DNA of 37,541 nucleotides from a virus, in the IMG/VR virus record IMGVR_UViG_3300047498_000022, positions 1 to 37,541 of that record; one strand, 5' to 3'. Below, piece by piece: positions 3,641-8,868 of the stretch. The notes below the pieces were generated by a model. That model was given only the letters and a program-made list of their open reading frames with translations. It did not search any database and was not told the origin of the DNA. Position 1 is the stretch's first letter. Every line of letters starts with the position of its first letter. The position numbers and the translations under genes are program-made.

Positions 3641-3720
3641 CCACCCCTAAAGGACACTATTTGCACAAAGGCGCCTATCTGGGTTGGTGCGCGGCATGGG
3701 AGGTGTTATGCAAGAACTGA
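3637..3720 (+). CDS. Possible 27-aa small protein
   Basis: A short frame (MTTPKGHYLHKGAYLGW at its start) begins in an ATGA overlap with the previous stop, with GGCGG upstream. It ends 13 bases inside the next gene. The coupling matches the rest of the operon and it fills an otherwise empty 67-base gap, but the length alone does not prove translation. Confidence 0.4.
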   Translation: MTTPKGHYLHKGAYLGWCAAWEVLCKN

Positions 3721-4400
3721 AGTCTTGTCCGCATTGTGGTGATGGCCGGAGCATCGTGGCTTGCATGCAAGACGATTACGGCTATTGGAGCGTCTGTTGT
3801 GGGGCTTGCGGATCATCGAGCGGCAAGTTGCCAGATAGCATTCCGAATGCGAGGGAGCGGATCATCGCTGGTTGGAATACAAGAGCAACGGAGCGGGAAT
3901 CCGCACACCCAGATGATTTTTCTATTAAAAGTGCTATTAATTGGTTACAGCTTGAGGCTGATTTGCACCCAAACTCATCATTTTCGCATGACTGCCTTGA
4001 AACGATAGGTCTGATAAAGCGGCTTTCCTCACCCGTGCGGGAATCCGCACAGCCGGTTCAGGAGTCGGACACTTTAAAACGGTTTAGCCAATGGATTAAA
4101 GACAATCCGAATAATCCTTATGCTGCGATGACGCTGGCCGTTCATAGGTATTTCCACGGTTTATGTGAGAACGGAAATAATGTAGATTTTGGTGATGACC
4201 CTTACCACGATAACGAGGCAATGAAGTTTGCCTTTTTAACCTCACGCCCGAAGCGGGAATCGGGAGAGGTGGAAAAGAGATTAAAAACAGCAATTGGTGG
4301 CTTGCGTTCTATCGCATATGGCGATGCTCAAACATGGCCTAATTGCTCTAGCAGAGAAGTGGCTAAACAAGCATTAGCAGACTGCGGAGGTGAAAAGTGA
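3708..4400 (+). CDS. Lar-like zinc-ribbon protein with repeated RES linkers, 230 aa
   Basis: ATG 3708 is chosen because GGAGG lies five bases upstream; the product then starts MQELKSCPHCG. Residues 1-57 match the Lar (restriction alleviation) zinc ribbon: CPHCG, CCGACG, then ARERIIAGWNTRA. E. coli Rac Lar modulates type I restriction; many phage relatives are uncharacterised. Three further segments follow, each introduced by a near-identical linker: RESAHP, RESAQP and RESGE. The first two linkers use the same 15 bases (3893-3907 and 4037-4051); the third repeats nine of them (4253-4261). The gene therefore looks like domains joined by a repeated DNA linker. It overlaps the next gene by ATGA-type coupling. 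Confidence 0.75.
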   Translation: MQELKSCPHCGDGRSIVACMQDDYGYWSVCCGACGSSSGKLPDSIPNARERIIAGWNTRATERESAHPDDFSIKSAINWLQLEADLHPNSSFSHDCLETIGLIKRLSSPVRESAQPVQESDTLKRFSQWIKDNPNNPYAAMTLAVHRYFHGLCENGNNVDFGDDPYHDNEAMKFAFLTSRPKRESGEVEKRLKTAIGGLRSIAYGDAQTWPNCSSREVAKQALADCGGEK

Positions 4401-6356: not shown

Positions 6357-6725
6357 ATGAAAACGGTAACTATACAATTCCTGCGCTGTAATATGGGCAA
6401 GATGTTCCACGAAATATCGGAACGGAAAATATCGTACTTGCTTACAAAGGCAGGAAAGCCAGTCGCTAAATTAGTTCCTTTGGATGATACGATTGAAATT
6501 ATGCCGGATGGAGAGATAAGAGGTGAACGTCCCATGACTATGGCTGATCGCTTTCTAGAGCAATGCAAAGTATGTCGAGGTGCGGGTTACACTAAAGCGC
6601 ATTATTACGGAGGCGATATAAACCAAATAAAGGTAATGGCCGAGCATTTCCCAAATAGACCCGTTCCCGTTCACAGGGATGAATGTAAGCGATGCGGCGG
6701 GACTGGAAAAGTCTATGCTGGTTAA
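6357..6725 (+). CDS. Phd/YefM-like domain fused to a CxxCxGxG zinc module, 122 aa
   Basis: Residues 1-43 follow the Phd/YefM antitoxin DNA-binding pattern: a short strand MKTVTI, a helix, then SYLLTKAGKPVAKLVPLDD, where KPVAKLVPL is the family signature. Residues 70-122 replace the usual toxin-binding tail with two DnaJ-type zinc motifs, CKVCRGAG and CKRCGGTG, separated by about 35 residues. No toxin gene is adjacent: the next gene is the convergent integrase, whose stop codon shares bases 6722-6725 with this one. AAAGGAAT precedes the ATG. A transcription regulator with a metal-binding tail is the simplest reading. Confidence 0.75.
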   Translation: MKTVTIQFLRCNMGKMFHEISERKISYLLTKAGKPVAKLVPLDDTIEIMPDGEIRGERPMTMADRFLEQCKVCRGAGYTKAHYYGGDINQIKVMAEHFPNRPVPVHRDECKRCGGTGKVYAG

Positions 6726-7567
6726 TCCCCTAACGCCTCGCGTAAATGTGCTTCCTCTTGGCTCACATGACTGTAAACGCGGCCTATCATGGAACCATCC
6801 GTATGCCCGACCGCCGGTGCGATCACCATATGATTTACCCCAGCCTTGATCTTTTTCGTTATATATCCATGTCTTAGGTCGTAGCTGGTCATCTTCACAC
6901 CGCAGCGTTTTGACAGTGCAGCCATTCTTTCACATACAGCGTATTTGCTCCATGCGTTTCCTCGTGAATCACGGAACAGCTTACCTTCGGAGTATTGCGC
7001 CAGCCGCTTCTCAATGATTGGCATCGTGGTGCTGTTGAGAAGTATCTTACGCGGCGCGCGTTTGCCTTTGGACTCACTGGCTGGGAATACGATACGCATA
7101 GCCGCCAATTCAACATGCCGCGCTTCGATGTGACGCGCCTCCTGGGGGCGGCAGCCACATGCCCACATAAATGTAATGAAGTCATGGAACGGGTCTGAAG
7201 GGGCTATGTCAGCAAGGAAACTCTCTACCTCGTCTTGCTTGGCGTAGCTTAAGCGGCGTTGCGCCGTAGGCTTCTTTAGCTTCTTAATCGGATTGCCCTC
7301 ACCATGGCCCATTTCTTCGGCCCAATTGAATACACGCTTGATGGCGACAACAGCCCCGCCGCGATAAGTGCTACCCCAGTCTTTACCGTGGCTGTCGATC
7401 CATTCCTGTACCTGGAATGGCTTCAGGTCATATGCGGGTGTATCGCCCATGGATTGGTACGCACAAGCCATGTCGATGTAATTTTTATACCACGCATAAG
7501 TACGTTCAGCCTGATGGTTGAAGCACCAGTCCAGATATTTTCCCGATAATTCTTTGAAAGTCAGCAT
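6722..7567 (-). CDS. Tyrosine-family phage integrase
   Basis: Site-specific recombinase that would integrate and excise the phage chromosome. The N-terminal 90 residues form a helical SAM-like core-binding domain (YAWYKNYIDMACAYQSMG). The catalytic domain follows with WACGCRPQEARHIE (box I Arg), a Lys/Arg-rich strand KGKRAPRKILLN, YDLRHGYIT (box II, with Tyr where His is more usual), GHTDGSMIGRVYSHVS (second His and the nucleophilic Tyr). At 281 residues it is short but complete. It is the only minus-strand gene in the left third, and its promoter must lie within the 114-base divergent gap to the regulator at 7682. AGGAAAT is a plausible ribosome binding site. Confidence 0.93.
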   Translation of the reverse strand: MLTFKELSGKYLDWCFNHQAERTYAWYKNYIDMACAYQSMGDTPAYDLKPFQVQEWIDSHGKDWGSTYRGGAVVAIKRVFNWAEEMGHGEGNPIKKLKKPTAQRRLSYAKQDEVESFLADIAPSDPFHDFITFMWACGCRPQEARHIEARHVELAAMRIVFPASESKGKRAPRKILLNSTTMPIIEKRLAQYSEGKLFRDSRGNAWSKYAVCERMAALSKRCGVKMTSYDLRHGYITKKIKAGVNHMVIAPAVGHTDGSMIGRVYSHVSQEEAHLREALGD

Positions 7568-7681: not shown

Positions 7682-7813
7682 ATGCAGATACGATCTATAA
7701 GAATGGACGATAAAACGTGGAAAAGGCTTGAAAAGCTTGCTGAACCTGAAAATGTCAGCATTCTTATCAGGAAAATACTGAGAGAATTTTTAGAAAACCA
7801 GACTAGAACTTAA
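7682..7813 (+). CDS. Ribbon-helix-helix (Arc/CopG-like) regulator, 43 aa
   Basis: Short frame starting at ATG 7682 with AAAGGA upstream. The sequence opens with a strand MQIRSIRMDD, followed by two helices (TWKRLEKLAE and VSILIRKILREFLEN), the ribbon-helix-helix layout: the strand pairs in the dimer and enters the DNA major groove. The 43-residue length matches minimal family members. It probably represses its own promoter through the half-sites at 7626-7662 and may control the divergent integrase. No CI-type repressor is visible in this window. Confidence 0.75.
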   Translation: MQIRSIRMDDKTWKRLEKLAEPENVSILIRKILREFLENQTRT

Positions 7814-7821
7814 GTGAATAT

Positions 7822-8055
7822 ATGAAAACGCATGATTTCTATAATATGCTCGAAGGAAGAGTCGGTAATCGTCAGCACTTGAAAAGTGGGATATGGGAGT
7901 ATCCAGACGATTTCTTGCAGCGTTACAATGGATGCATAGATAAATTAAATGCTCTAGTGAATCTTGTTTCACATGCCGTAGAAGAATTGACGGTTTTGGA
8001 AAAAGAACAAATGCAATATACGGCTGGTAGCCGTAAAACCACTACTAGAACTTAG
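7822..8055 (+). CDS. Hypothetical protein, 77 aa
   Basis: Follows the regulator after eight bases. It is helical with no recognised family. The C-terminus ends Thr-Arg-Thr, as does the regulator, because both genes finish with the same nine bases ACTAGAACT. Confidence 0.65.
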   Translation: MKTHDFYNMLEGRVGNRQHLKSGIWEYPDDFLQRYNGCIDKLNALVNLVSHAVEELTVLEKEQMQYTAGSRKTTTRT

Positions 8056-8197
8056 AAATACGGAAGCCCTGAAGGCGTTTTGGCGAATTAGGCCGCAGCA
8101 GGGGATAAGCTGGCAGAGTGAAAGCTCTTAAAACCCATACGCCTAGGGGCCAAGCACCAAATAAACAGACTAGAACTCCGGTAGGGAAGGAATAATT
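8056..8197 (+). other. 142-base intergenic stretch with structured elements
   Basis: The gap holds several small signals. AGGCGT (8073-8078) and ACGCCT (8139-8144) are inverted repeats that could close a long stem. Inside is a compact hairpin AGAGT-GAAA-GCTCT (8115-8128) with a GNRA-type loop. TGGCAGAGTG (8111-8120) recurs in the tRNA-like element at 8217-8226. CAGACTAGAACT (8166-8177) repeats the end of the regulator gene. A possible 25-codon GTG frame (8118-8195) exists but has no well-placed ribosome binding site. Confidence 0.45.
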
Positions 8198-8656
8198 ATG
8201 ACAGTAGATAGCTCAGTGGCAGAGTGCGGTGAAAGCGGAAACGTGTTGCAACACCAATCCCAAGAAGTAGCCGAAGCCGATGGTTCGACTCCATCTCTAC
8301 TGTCGCCCGCTGAAACGGCGGTTCCTTTGAAACTTTGCCCTATATGCGCTTCTATCGCTGAAAAACGCGGCGGATATGATTGGGGAAAAGTAGGATGCAG
8401 TAGTTGGGAGTGTCCGATACGGGGCATAGCCTTTTATCCTGAACGGTGGAATGATCGTCCCTTAGATAAGGCAGTAGATGAAAAATATAAGAAAATGCAA
8501 GAAAAACTACATAATTACGGCAGTTGTGTGGCCAGCATCTATTCTCTTGCTGAGCCACTGAGAAAAACCAATGGCGTATGTGGAGCAATAGCGGAATTTA
8601 TTGAGAAGTACGCTCCTAAAGCCGTTGAGAATTCGAAAAAGGAAAGAACATCATGA
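8198..8656 (+). CDS. Lar-like zinc-ribbon protein with tRNA-like 5' end, 152 aa
   Basis: From residue 45 the protein has the Lar-like pattern LKLCPIC ... VGCSSWECP ... AFYPERWNDRP: two Cys pairs, then an aromatic segment ending in W-N. The first 35 codons coincide with the tRNA-like element and have a composition unlike a conserved domain, so translation may really begin later, for example at the TTG just before KLCPIC. Against this, ATG 8198 has a good AAGGA eight bases upstream and the frame stays open throughout. Lar-like proteins relieve host restriction in the characterised case; the role here is inferred. It overlaps the next gene by four bases. Confidence 0.7.
   Translation: MTVDSSVAECGESGNVLQHQSQEVAEADGSTPSLLSPAETAVPLKLCPICASIAEKRGGYDWGKVGCSSWECPIRGIAFYPERWNDRPLDKAVDEKYKKMQEKLHNYGSCVASIYSLAEPLRKTNGVCGAIAEFIEKYAPKAVENSKKERTS
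8200..8304 (+). tRNA. tRNA-like element (non-canonical or pseudo-tRNA)
   Basis: A nine-base acceptor-type stem pairs 8200-8208 with 8296-8304 (seven are expected). T8-A9-like bases follow, then a D-arm GCTC-AGTGGCA-GAGT (8211-8225). A textbook T-arm GATGG-TTCGACT-CCATC (8279-8295) ends directly against the 3' strand of the acceptor. The 52 bases between the arms are too long for an ordinary anticodon arm plus variable loop, and I find no clean 5-bp/7-base anticodon hairpin; GGTG/CACC (8228-8231 with 8252-8255) is the best pairing. No CCA is encoded. It may be a degenerate tRNA, a tRNA mimic, or host-derived sequence acting as an attachment site near the integrase. Confidence 0.5.
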
Positions 8657-8868
8657 GTAATAACCCTAGCCAGTTTAATGCTAATTATGCGGCAAATGAG
8701 ATCAATAAGTTAAACTATGGATTACAACAAGCGCAGGAAACGGTAGTTACGCTTAAAAAGCGCATTAAAACAGCTTTGCGCGTTCTCGAAGGCATGATTG
8801 ATGGCGACTCACCGATGGATGGTGAGATTAGCGATGTAATACGCATACTGGATGGGACTCAGCCATGA
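8653..8868 (+). CDS. Hypothetical protein, 71 aa
   Basis: Helical, with a likely coiled coil at residues 15-45 (INKLNYGLQQAQETVVTLKK). Joined to both neighbours by four-base overlaps. No family is recognised. Confidence 0.7.
   Translation: MSNNPSQFNANYAANEINKLNYGLQQAQETVVTLKKRIKTALRVLEGMIDGDSPMDGEISDVIRILDGTQP

Follow-up and report, generated by a model that had tools for sequence, protein, structure and literature searches.

A tRNA-like element is located at positions 8200–8304 on the plus strand of a virus record of 37,541 bases, which was analysed at its full length and is called the window in the following. The element is almost certainly related to tRNA, and it is placed in the first codons of a gene with a zinc ribbon. 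Our tentatively favoured reading is that it is a tRNA mimic that forms part of the gene start and would act in cis by limiting translation, while an RNA acting in trans is nearly as likely. The element thus offers a testable case of a tRNA-like RNA lying over a start codon, and the question that it raises is whether a tRNA mimic can gate an antirestriction-type gene of a phage. The features that are needed for the discussion are the following:

6722–7567, minus strand: tyrosine integrase (profile match to PF00589), its start 0.63 kb from the element
8186–8192, plus strand: Shine-Dalgarno strand GAAGGAA, predicted to pair with 8322–8328 (pair probabilities)
8198–8656, plus strand: open reading frame of 152 aa, running from the ATG at 8198 through the element (ORF list, start-site scoring)
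8200–8304, plus strand: whole tRNA-like element with a 9-bp closing stem, 105 nt or 35 codons (sequence, folding, Rfam match)
8202–8303, plus strand: extent of the match to the Rfam tRNA model RF00005 (42.4 bits, E 1.3e-7)
8211–8225, plus strand: D-arm GCTC-AGTGGCA-GAGT (sequence, Rfam match)
8227–8230, plus strand: 5' strand CGGU of an anticodon-type stem, pairing with 8270–8273 (constrained fold)
8231–8269, plus strand: 39-nt insert replacing the anticodon loop, with a predicted inner hairpin, GGA/UCC and GUGU-UGCA-ACAC (constrained pair probabilities 0.61–0.72)
8270–8273, plus strand: 3' strand GCCG of the anticodon-type stem (constrained fold)
8274–8278, plus strand: variable loop AAGCC, 5 nt (sequence, constrained fold)
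8279–8295, plus strand: T-arm GATGG-TTCGACT-CCATC (sequence, Rfam match)
8307–8321, plus strand: hairpin separating the element from the anti-Shine-Dalgarno strand (dot-bracket of the 8056–8400 fold)
8322–8328, plus strand: anti-Shine-Dalgarno strand UUCCUUU just beyond the element, overlapping an alternative TTG start at 8327–8329 (pair probabilities)
8327–8653, plus strand: codons 44–152, where the zinc ribbon starts with LKLCPIC; weak Lar-like match (E 0.023) and Vibrio phage homologue

The tRNA-like element

The acceptor stem can be read directly from the sequence, with seven pairs between CAGTAGA (8202–8208) and TCTACTG (8296–8302), and it is extended to nine by GA at 8200–8201 and TC at 8303–8304. 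T8209 and A8210 stand directly 5' of the D-arm, and the bases of the tRNA elbow are present, namely T8, A14, G15 with C48, G18, G19 and TTCGA, in the usual tRNA numbering. A 3' CCA is not encoded, since 8303–8307 reads TCGCC. Run with permissive filters, cmscan places the RF00005 match well above the curated cut-off of 29 bits, with 41 positions in the middle compared to 11 in the model. The tRNA-like fold that the original prediction had proposed is thereby confirmed, with acceptor stem, D-arm and T-arm at tRNA spacing and consensus letters in the loops. A purpose-written structural scanner, applied to both strands, gave this one match in the window and none in 200 dinucleotide shuffles.

Standard searches miss the element, presumably because of the insert that enlarges its middle. 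It was not reported when the whole window was searched with the same Rfam library at default filters, and a default run of ARAGORN, one of the checks suggested earlier, called no tRNA for it. Neither ARAGORN nor the Rfam tmRNA models detected it as a tmRNA.

The energetics of the fold are less distinctive. Plain folding of the element is modestly stable (z −1.33, equalled by 20 of 200 shuffles), and the unconstrained optimum of −29.7 kcal/mol is not a cloverleaf. The forced cloverleaf is found at −29.0 kcal/mol, that is, 0.7 kcal/mol higher, and the pair probability of the D-stem is only ca 0.1 in unconstrained folding, where tertiary contacts are not included. The cost of the cloverleaf, the rarity of the D-stem and the z-score mean that it is the sequence and the layout which carry the case, and not the free energy.

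It had also been stated that the element lacks a normal anticodon hairpin. This holds for the loop, where the seven bases of a tRNA are replaced by ca 39 between the stem strands and where no U is found at position 33, but not for the stem, as one of 4 bp can be drawn. When the three arms are held, the best fold adds this CGGU/GCCG stem with a 1-base linker and the 5-base variable loop, which are canonical junctions. With an anticodon stem and normal connectors in place, the whole change consists in the exchange of the anticodon loop for the larger one. An origin from tRNA-Cys may be considered on the basis of TTGCAAC in the element's loop and of T-arm letters that are the same in tRNA-Cys. 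By its layout, the element groups with the phage tRNA-like RNAs discussed below, and as it stands it is not a decoding tRNA.

The gene and its start site

The ATG at 8198 is four bases 5' of the acceptor stem, and the good ribosome binding site claimed for it holds, with −8.0 kcal/mol, a value reached by 1.25% of random positions. The encoded protein matches phrog_599 only weakly, at the E-value given above. A Vibrio phage protein is 50% identical to it over residues 44–87 (44 residues, E 6e-6), and this homologue has the N-terminus MSKELKPCPFCG, with no counterpart of the element stretch, which means that the N-terminal extension here is the element. The window contains a second Lar-like zinc-ribbon gene at 3684–4400 (phrog_599, E 9.9e-8), with VMQELKSCPHCG near its start. 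As both the Vibrio homologue and this second gene have short N-termini, the one considered here appears to have been lengthened by about the element. Removal of 8200–8304 leaves, by inspection, the ATG and the same frame (MPAETAVPLKLCPIC), for which the chance is ca 1 in 12.

Read in frame, the insert has a coding-like codon use, at +0.20 per codon (in-frame 0.43, sd 0.23; out-of-frame −0.49), a score that is reached by 8 of 115 other tRNA-like inserts, so that the support is modest. The original prediction had regarded it as unusual that a frame stays open through a tRNA shape. This turned out not to be the case, as 53 of the 115 other elements are also free of stops in this frame, and same-strand open reading frames of at least 60 aa run over 16 of 71 other viral elements.

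We now consider the start site itself, which the folding calculations predict to be sequestered by structure. The Shine-Dalgarno bases 8187–8191 are paired with probabilities of 0.90–0.99 in five sequence contexts, mainly with 8322–8328, and of 200 shuffled versions of the downstream stretch, 2 give such values (shuffle mean 0.48). G8200 of the start codon is within the outer stem, paired at 0.87–1.0. Among 11 other starts of the phage, one has a Shine-Dalgarno pairing of 0.98 and three have 0.74–0.78. Paired Shine-Dalgarno regions are therefore not rare in this phage, and the signal for a lock is suggestive rather than decisive.

Upstream of the gene, 8056–8197 comprises 142 bases without a clear gene and shares TGGCAGAGTG with the D-arm. 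It was considered as a second RNA and dismissed, its fold being no better than shuffles (z 0.12) and no tRNA model matching it.

As to the phage, one structural protein has distant counterparts in Salmonella phage SPN1S and further small phages (ca 20–24% identity), a similarity for which the label epsilon15-like is used, and no relative of it was found in the viral contigs. No relative of the zinc ribbon could be confirmed in the viral contigs, nor of the whole protein in the genome contigs.

Oversize tRNA-like elements in phages

Relatives of the element were sought in several ways. In the phage collection, blastn gave none for 8040–8700, and no DNA relatives were found for the first 20 kb of the window either. 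A blastn search with 8190–8315 at E up to 10 returned only short scraps, a search with an exact 20-mer gave no match, and a degenerate pattern of the insert found no relative. A relaxed arm pattern gave one stretch, an oversize element on the minus strand of a 233-kb contig (L061, ca 322–425). This is the only other viral element with GAGTGC after the D-loop, and it has ACCAATC in the loop. It ties for the best of 135 inserts, but its alignment score (0.0045 relative to shuffles, before correction for the 135 comparisons) does not make it a convincing relative.

The general plan, in contrast to the particular sequence, is widespread. In viral contigs, a pattern of two consensus arms 42–72 bases apart matches 112 stretches. 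The genome contigs have 69, among them many tRNA genes of archaea and a set from Flavobacterium. All 7 acceptor pairs and all 5 T-stem pairs are formed in 71 of the 112 and in 45 of the 69. With the window's own element the viral count becomes 72, near-identical contigs not being merged, and of these 14 have 5/5 and 15 have 4/5 anticodon-stem pairs, compared to 37 and 215 of 2000 random pairings. The middles differ widely, and some loci carry two or three oversize elements each. The layout of this phage pseudo-tRNA class, with intact acceptor, D- and T-stems around an oversize middle, is that found at 8200–8304.

Two loop families could be distinguished. In the first, F1, the anticodon loop is replaced by TTAC-stem-TTCG-hairpin-GCA-stem-GTTCCT. 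Its rows were picked by the arm pattern and GTTCCT alone, which gave 17, of which 4 identical ones were dropped and 13 aligned (A1: L017, L022, L024, L030, L045, L055, L063, L073, L101, L105, L107, L128, L188). Besides viral contigs, the family is found in a Marinicella (L128) and in an Emcibacteraceae MAG (L188). In the alignment, 97.9% of the cells pair, 17 of 26 pairs are changed on both sides, and the covariation is 0.495, compared to 0.180 for shuffles and at most 0.120 for a slid alignment. The inner loop helix is paired in all 13 rows, with 3 of its 5 pairs changed on both sides; against this, one anticodon-stem pair fails in 7 of the 13. Phage pseudo-tRNAs are usually dismissed as broken, but the F1 covariation speaks otherwise for at least some of them: an inner helix that changes in step on both strands says that these are working RNAs. 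The F1 motif GTTCCT is absent from 8231–8269 of the window.

The second family, F2, has a hairpin, often with a GNNA loop, followed by ca five bases and GCA. The criterion was a perfect hairpin of 5–7 bp, 2–7 nt before GCA, and ten rows were aligned (A2: L007, L020, L029, L059, L062, L085, L147, L172, L193, L194). The pair counts of this alignment are partly circular, since the scan that chose the rows let through only elements with the hairpin and with fully paired acceptor and T stems, and no claim is based on them. The window's element is not among the matches of the F2 scan; its GCAAC comes without the hairpin.

Vibrio phage KVP40 (L062) has several oversize elements, one of which is annotated as tRNA-Pseudo-3. 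A conservation of the KVP40 element in 56 phages was considered and discarded, as the non-Vibrio matches cover ca 20–30% of the query around the T-arm and mostly lie under annotated tRNAs. Vibrio phage D479 (L194) carries two adjacent oversize elements, at 63–186 and 214–332, annotated as tRNAs without an amino acid. Outside the phages, ten Flavobacterium genomes (L131, L133, L156, L163, L171, L176, L180, L181, L183, L184) and a Saprospiraceae MAG (L143) share a closely similar tRNA-like gene with a middle of 70–72 nt, and L180, L181 and L184 have a second one. In the open-licence literature, no description of phage tRNA-like RNAs with altered anticodon parts was found among titles and the openings of abstracts, which is a weak negative.

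Possible roles of the element

The mimic and the RNA regulating its own mRNA, both named as options in the original prediction, are the best fit to the canonical junctions, the start codon in the stem and the predicted Shine-Dalgarno lock, while the mechanism is one that we infer. In this proposal, a tRNA-derived or tRNA-mimicking domain with an enlarged, structured loop would sit in frame in the first codons of a Lar-like, antirestriction-type gene. In the folded state, the 9-bp stem would take up the G of the start codon and bring the anti-Shine-Dalgarno strand at 8322–8328 to 8186–8192, resulting in low initiation. Ribosomes that do load would read through the element, yielding a protein with a 43-residue N-terminal extension. 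If the fold persists, RNase P and the 3' tRNA endonuclease could excise the element just behind the AUG, which would end translation of that mRNA and release a tRNA-like RNA. One can speculate that a ligand or a protein binds to the large loop.

The cis-acting mimic accounts together for the tRNA-like sequence and layout, the predicted start-site lock, the coding-like frame and the homology that starts only past the element. Against it are the D-arm, which is not favoured in unconstrained folding, and the modest codon support. Processing is uncertain because the stem has 9 bp, where a normal acceptor has 7, and because CCA is absent, and the many similar elements outside genes argue for a trans role of the class.

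The element could instead be an independent small RNA gene, a possibility that we rank only slightly lower. It would be a tRNA mimic acting in trans, transcribed with the operon and excised by tRNA-processing enzymes, whose tRNA body serves as a stable carrier for the loop, as a sponge, decoy or scaffold. The overlap with the frame would be incidental, and the zinc-ribbon protein would be made from the TTG at 8327 or at a low level. Such a role is suggested by the 71 viral elements with the same plan, by the strong covariation in the F1 loop, by the annotated tRNA-Pseudo-3 of KVP40 that is conserved in Vibrio phages, and by T4, which makes the stable rnaC and rnaD of unknown role. However, the ATG with its good ribosome site, the coding-like codons and the start-site lock would then all be coincidence, and the element, with its 9-bp stem and no CCA, has neither the F1 nor the F2 loop motif. 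In a further scenario, a tRNA gene would have inserted close to where the zinc-ribbon gene begins and would now be decaying, with its anticodon already lost and without a present function. That the homology starts right past the element, that its deletion restores start codon and frame, and that none of the relatives found has kept it would all be explained. This is nevertheless unlikely, as random decay would strike every arm, whereas the acceptor and the T-stem are made up of standard pairs throughout, the D-stem is undamaged and the anticodon loop is the one part that departs, and as the frame is open and coding-like.

Very improbable is that the element is a decoding tRNA whose anticodon loop contains a small intron. 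ARAGORN with introns allowed does propose a tRNA-Ser(aga) after removal of 28 bases, and the arm pattern also finds archaeal tRNAs with such inserts. In this mode, however, the program calls some tRNA, with such an intron, for nearly every element given, so that the Ser(aga) identity means little; the usual intron site would need a U at position 33, which is missing, and we know of no splicing system of that kind in bacteria or their phages. A chance likeness of coding sequence to tRNA, to which the low folding z-score would correspond, can hardly be reconciled with the score of the Rfam match, the empty shuffles of both strands and loop letters that match the consensus as well as the pairing does. 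We finally considered the element as an attP core derived from a host tRNA, with the ACTAGAACT repeats as integrase arm sites, and judge this to be quite unlikely. The integrase start is indeed close, in agreement with the ca 0.6 kb noted originally, and three exact direct copies of ACTAGAACT lie between integrase and element, at 7802–7810, 8044–8052 and 8169–8177, within 376 bases and nowhere else in the window (0.10 expected). On the other hand, there are no repeats on the far side of the element, the first two copies coincide with gene ends, both TRT followed by the stop, and the element has a complete 5' half, which to our knowledge is not expected of an attP core.

The earlier suggestion of a degenerate attachment site found no support in the genomes either, and an attachment site is unlikely: the 3' 21-mer was absent, at up to 2 mismatches, from all 398 genomes sampled from one phylum and, at up to 3 mismatches, from 5 others. 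The integrase has only distant matches in the 398 genomes (216 of them, best E 1.3e-11) and relatives at three loci in viral contigs, none of which shows a tRNA-like element by ARAGORN or the scanner. For the ACTAGAACT repeats, a role as integrase arm sites, as operators or as recombination joints is possible.

Returning to the cis-acting mimic, one may ask how it relates to the wider population. A broader idea, which is possible but doubtful, is that the tRNA body serves phages as a general chassis, in which acceptor and elbow are kept and the anticodon loop is swapped for structured, covarying modules. The element at 8200–8304 would then be one of these RNAs, displaced into a coding frame, where folding or processing competes with translation, and one and the same sequence would fold as RNA into a tRNA shape and also supply a protein gene with its first 35 codons.

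Comparison with known systems

Archaeal tRNA genes with anticodon-loop introns resemble the element in that an insert enlarges the anticodon loop of a tRNA body, and the same pattern finds both, but they are cellular and have a usable anticodon and a removable intron. The bacterial Y RNAs (YrlA), noncoding RNAs reported also from phages, have a tRNA-like module that is joined through the anticodon side and has a closed acceptor stem, which is the reverse of the topology seen here. In the thrS operator of E. coli, an mRNA domain resembling a tRNA lies at the translation start and prevents initiation. It mimics the anticodon arm for a synthetase, whereas the window's element has no anticodon loop.

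A tRNA-like fold that controls translation in cis is described for the yjdF riboswitch (PMC9142559). It differs in binding azaaromatic compounds, and the excerpted text of that paper does not claim D- and T-loop consensus letters or an in-frame location for it. The species 1 RNA of T4 (rnaC) is, like the element, carried by a phage and has a perfect T-arm. It is a stable RNA of ca 139 nt located in a tRNA cluster, for which the scanner finds no canonical D-arm, and it scores 17.5 bits on the tRNA-Sec model, below the cut-off. In the excerpted text of PMC3014915, rnaC is stable and its role unknown, and the same is said of rnaC and rnaD together in the excerpts of PMC3014915 and PMC12685909.

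For the Vibrio phages, the excerpted phi-pp2 paper mentions three low-score pseudo forms in both phi-pp2 and KVP40 (PMC3468402). Compared to the element, tRNA-Pseudo-3 of KVP40 is located in a tRNA cluster, where it covers no start codon with a ribosome binding site, it ends in CCA, and its middle contains a hairpin and a GCA motif that are absent here. What the two have in common is a phage-borne tRNA body with acceptor stem, D-arm and T-arm around a large middle, 68 nt there and 57 nt here, and in the case of tRNA-Pseudo-3 this body is kept in the KVP40-like Vibrio phages.
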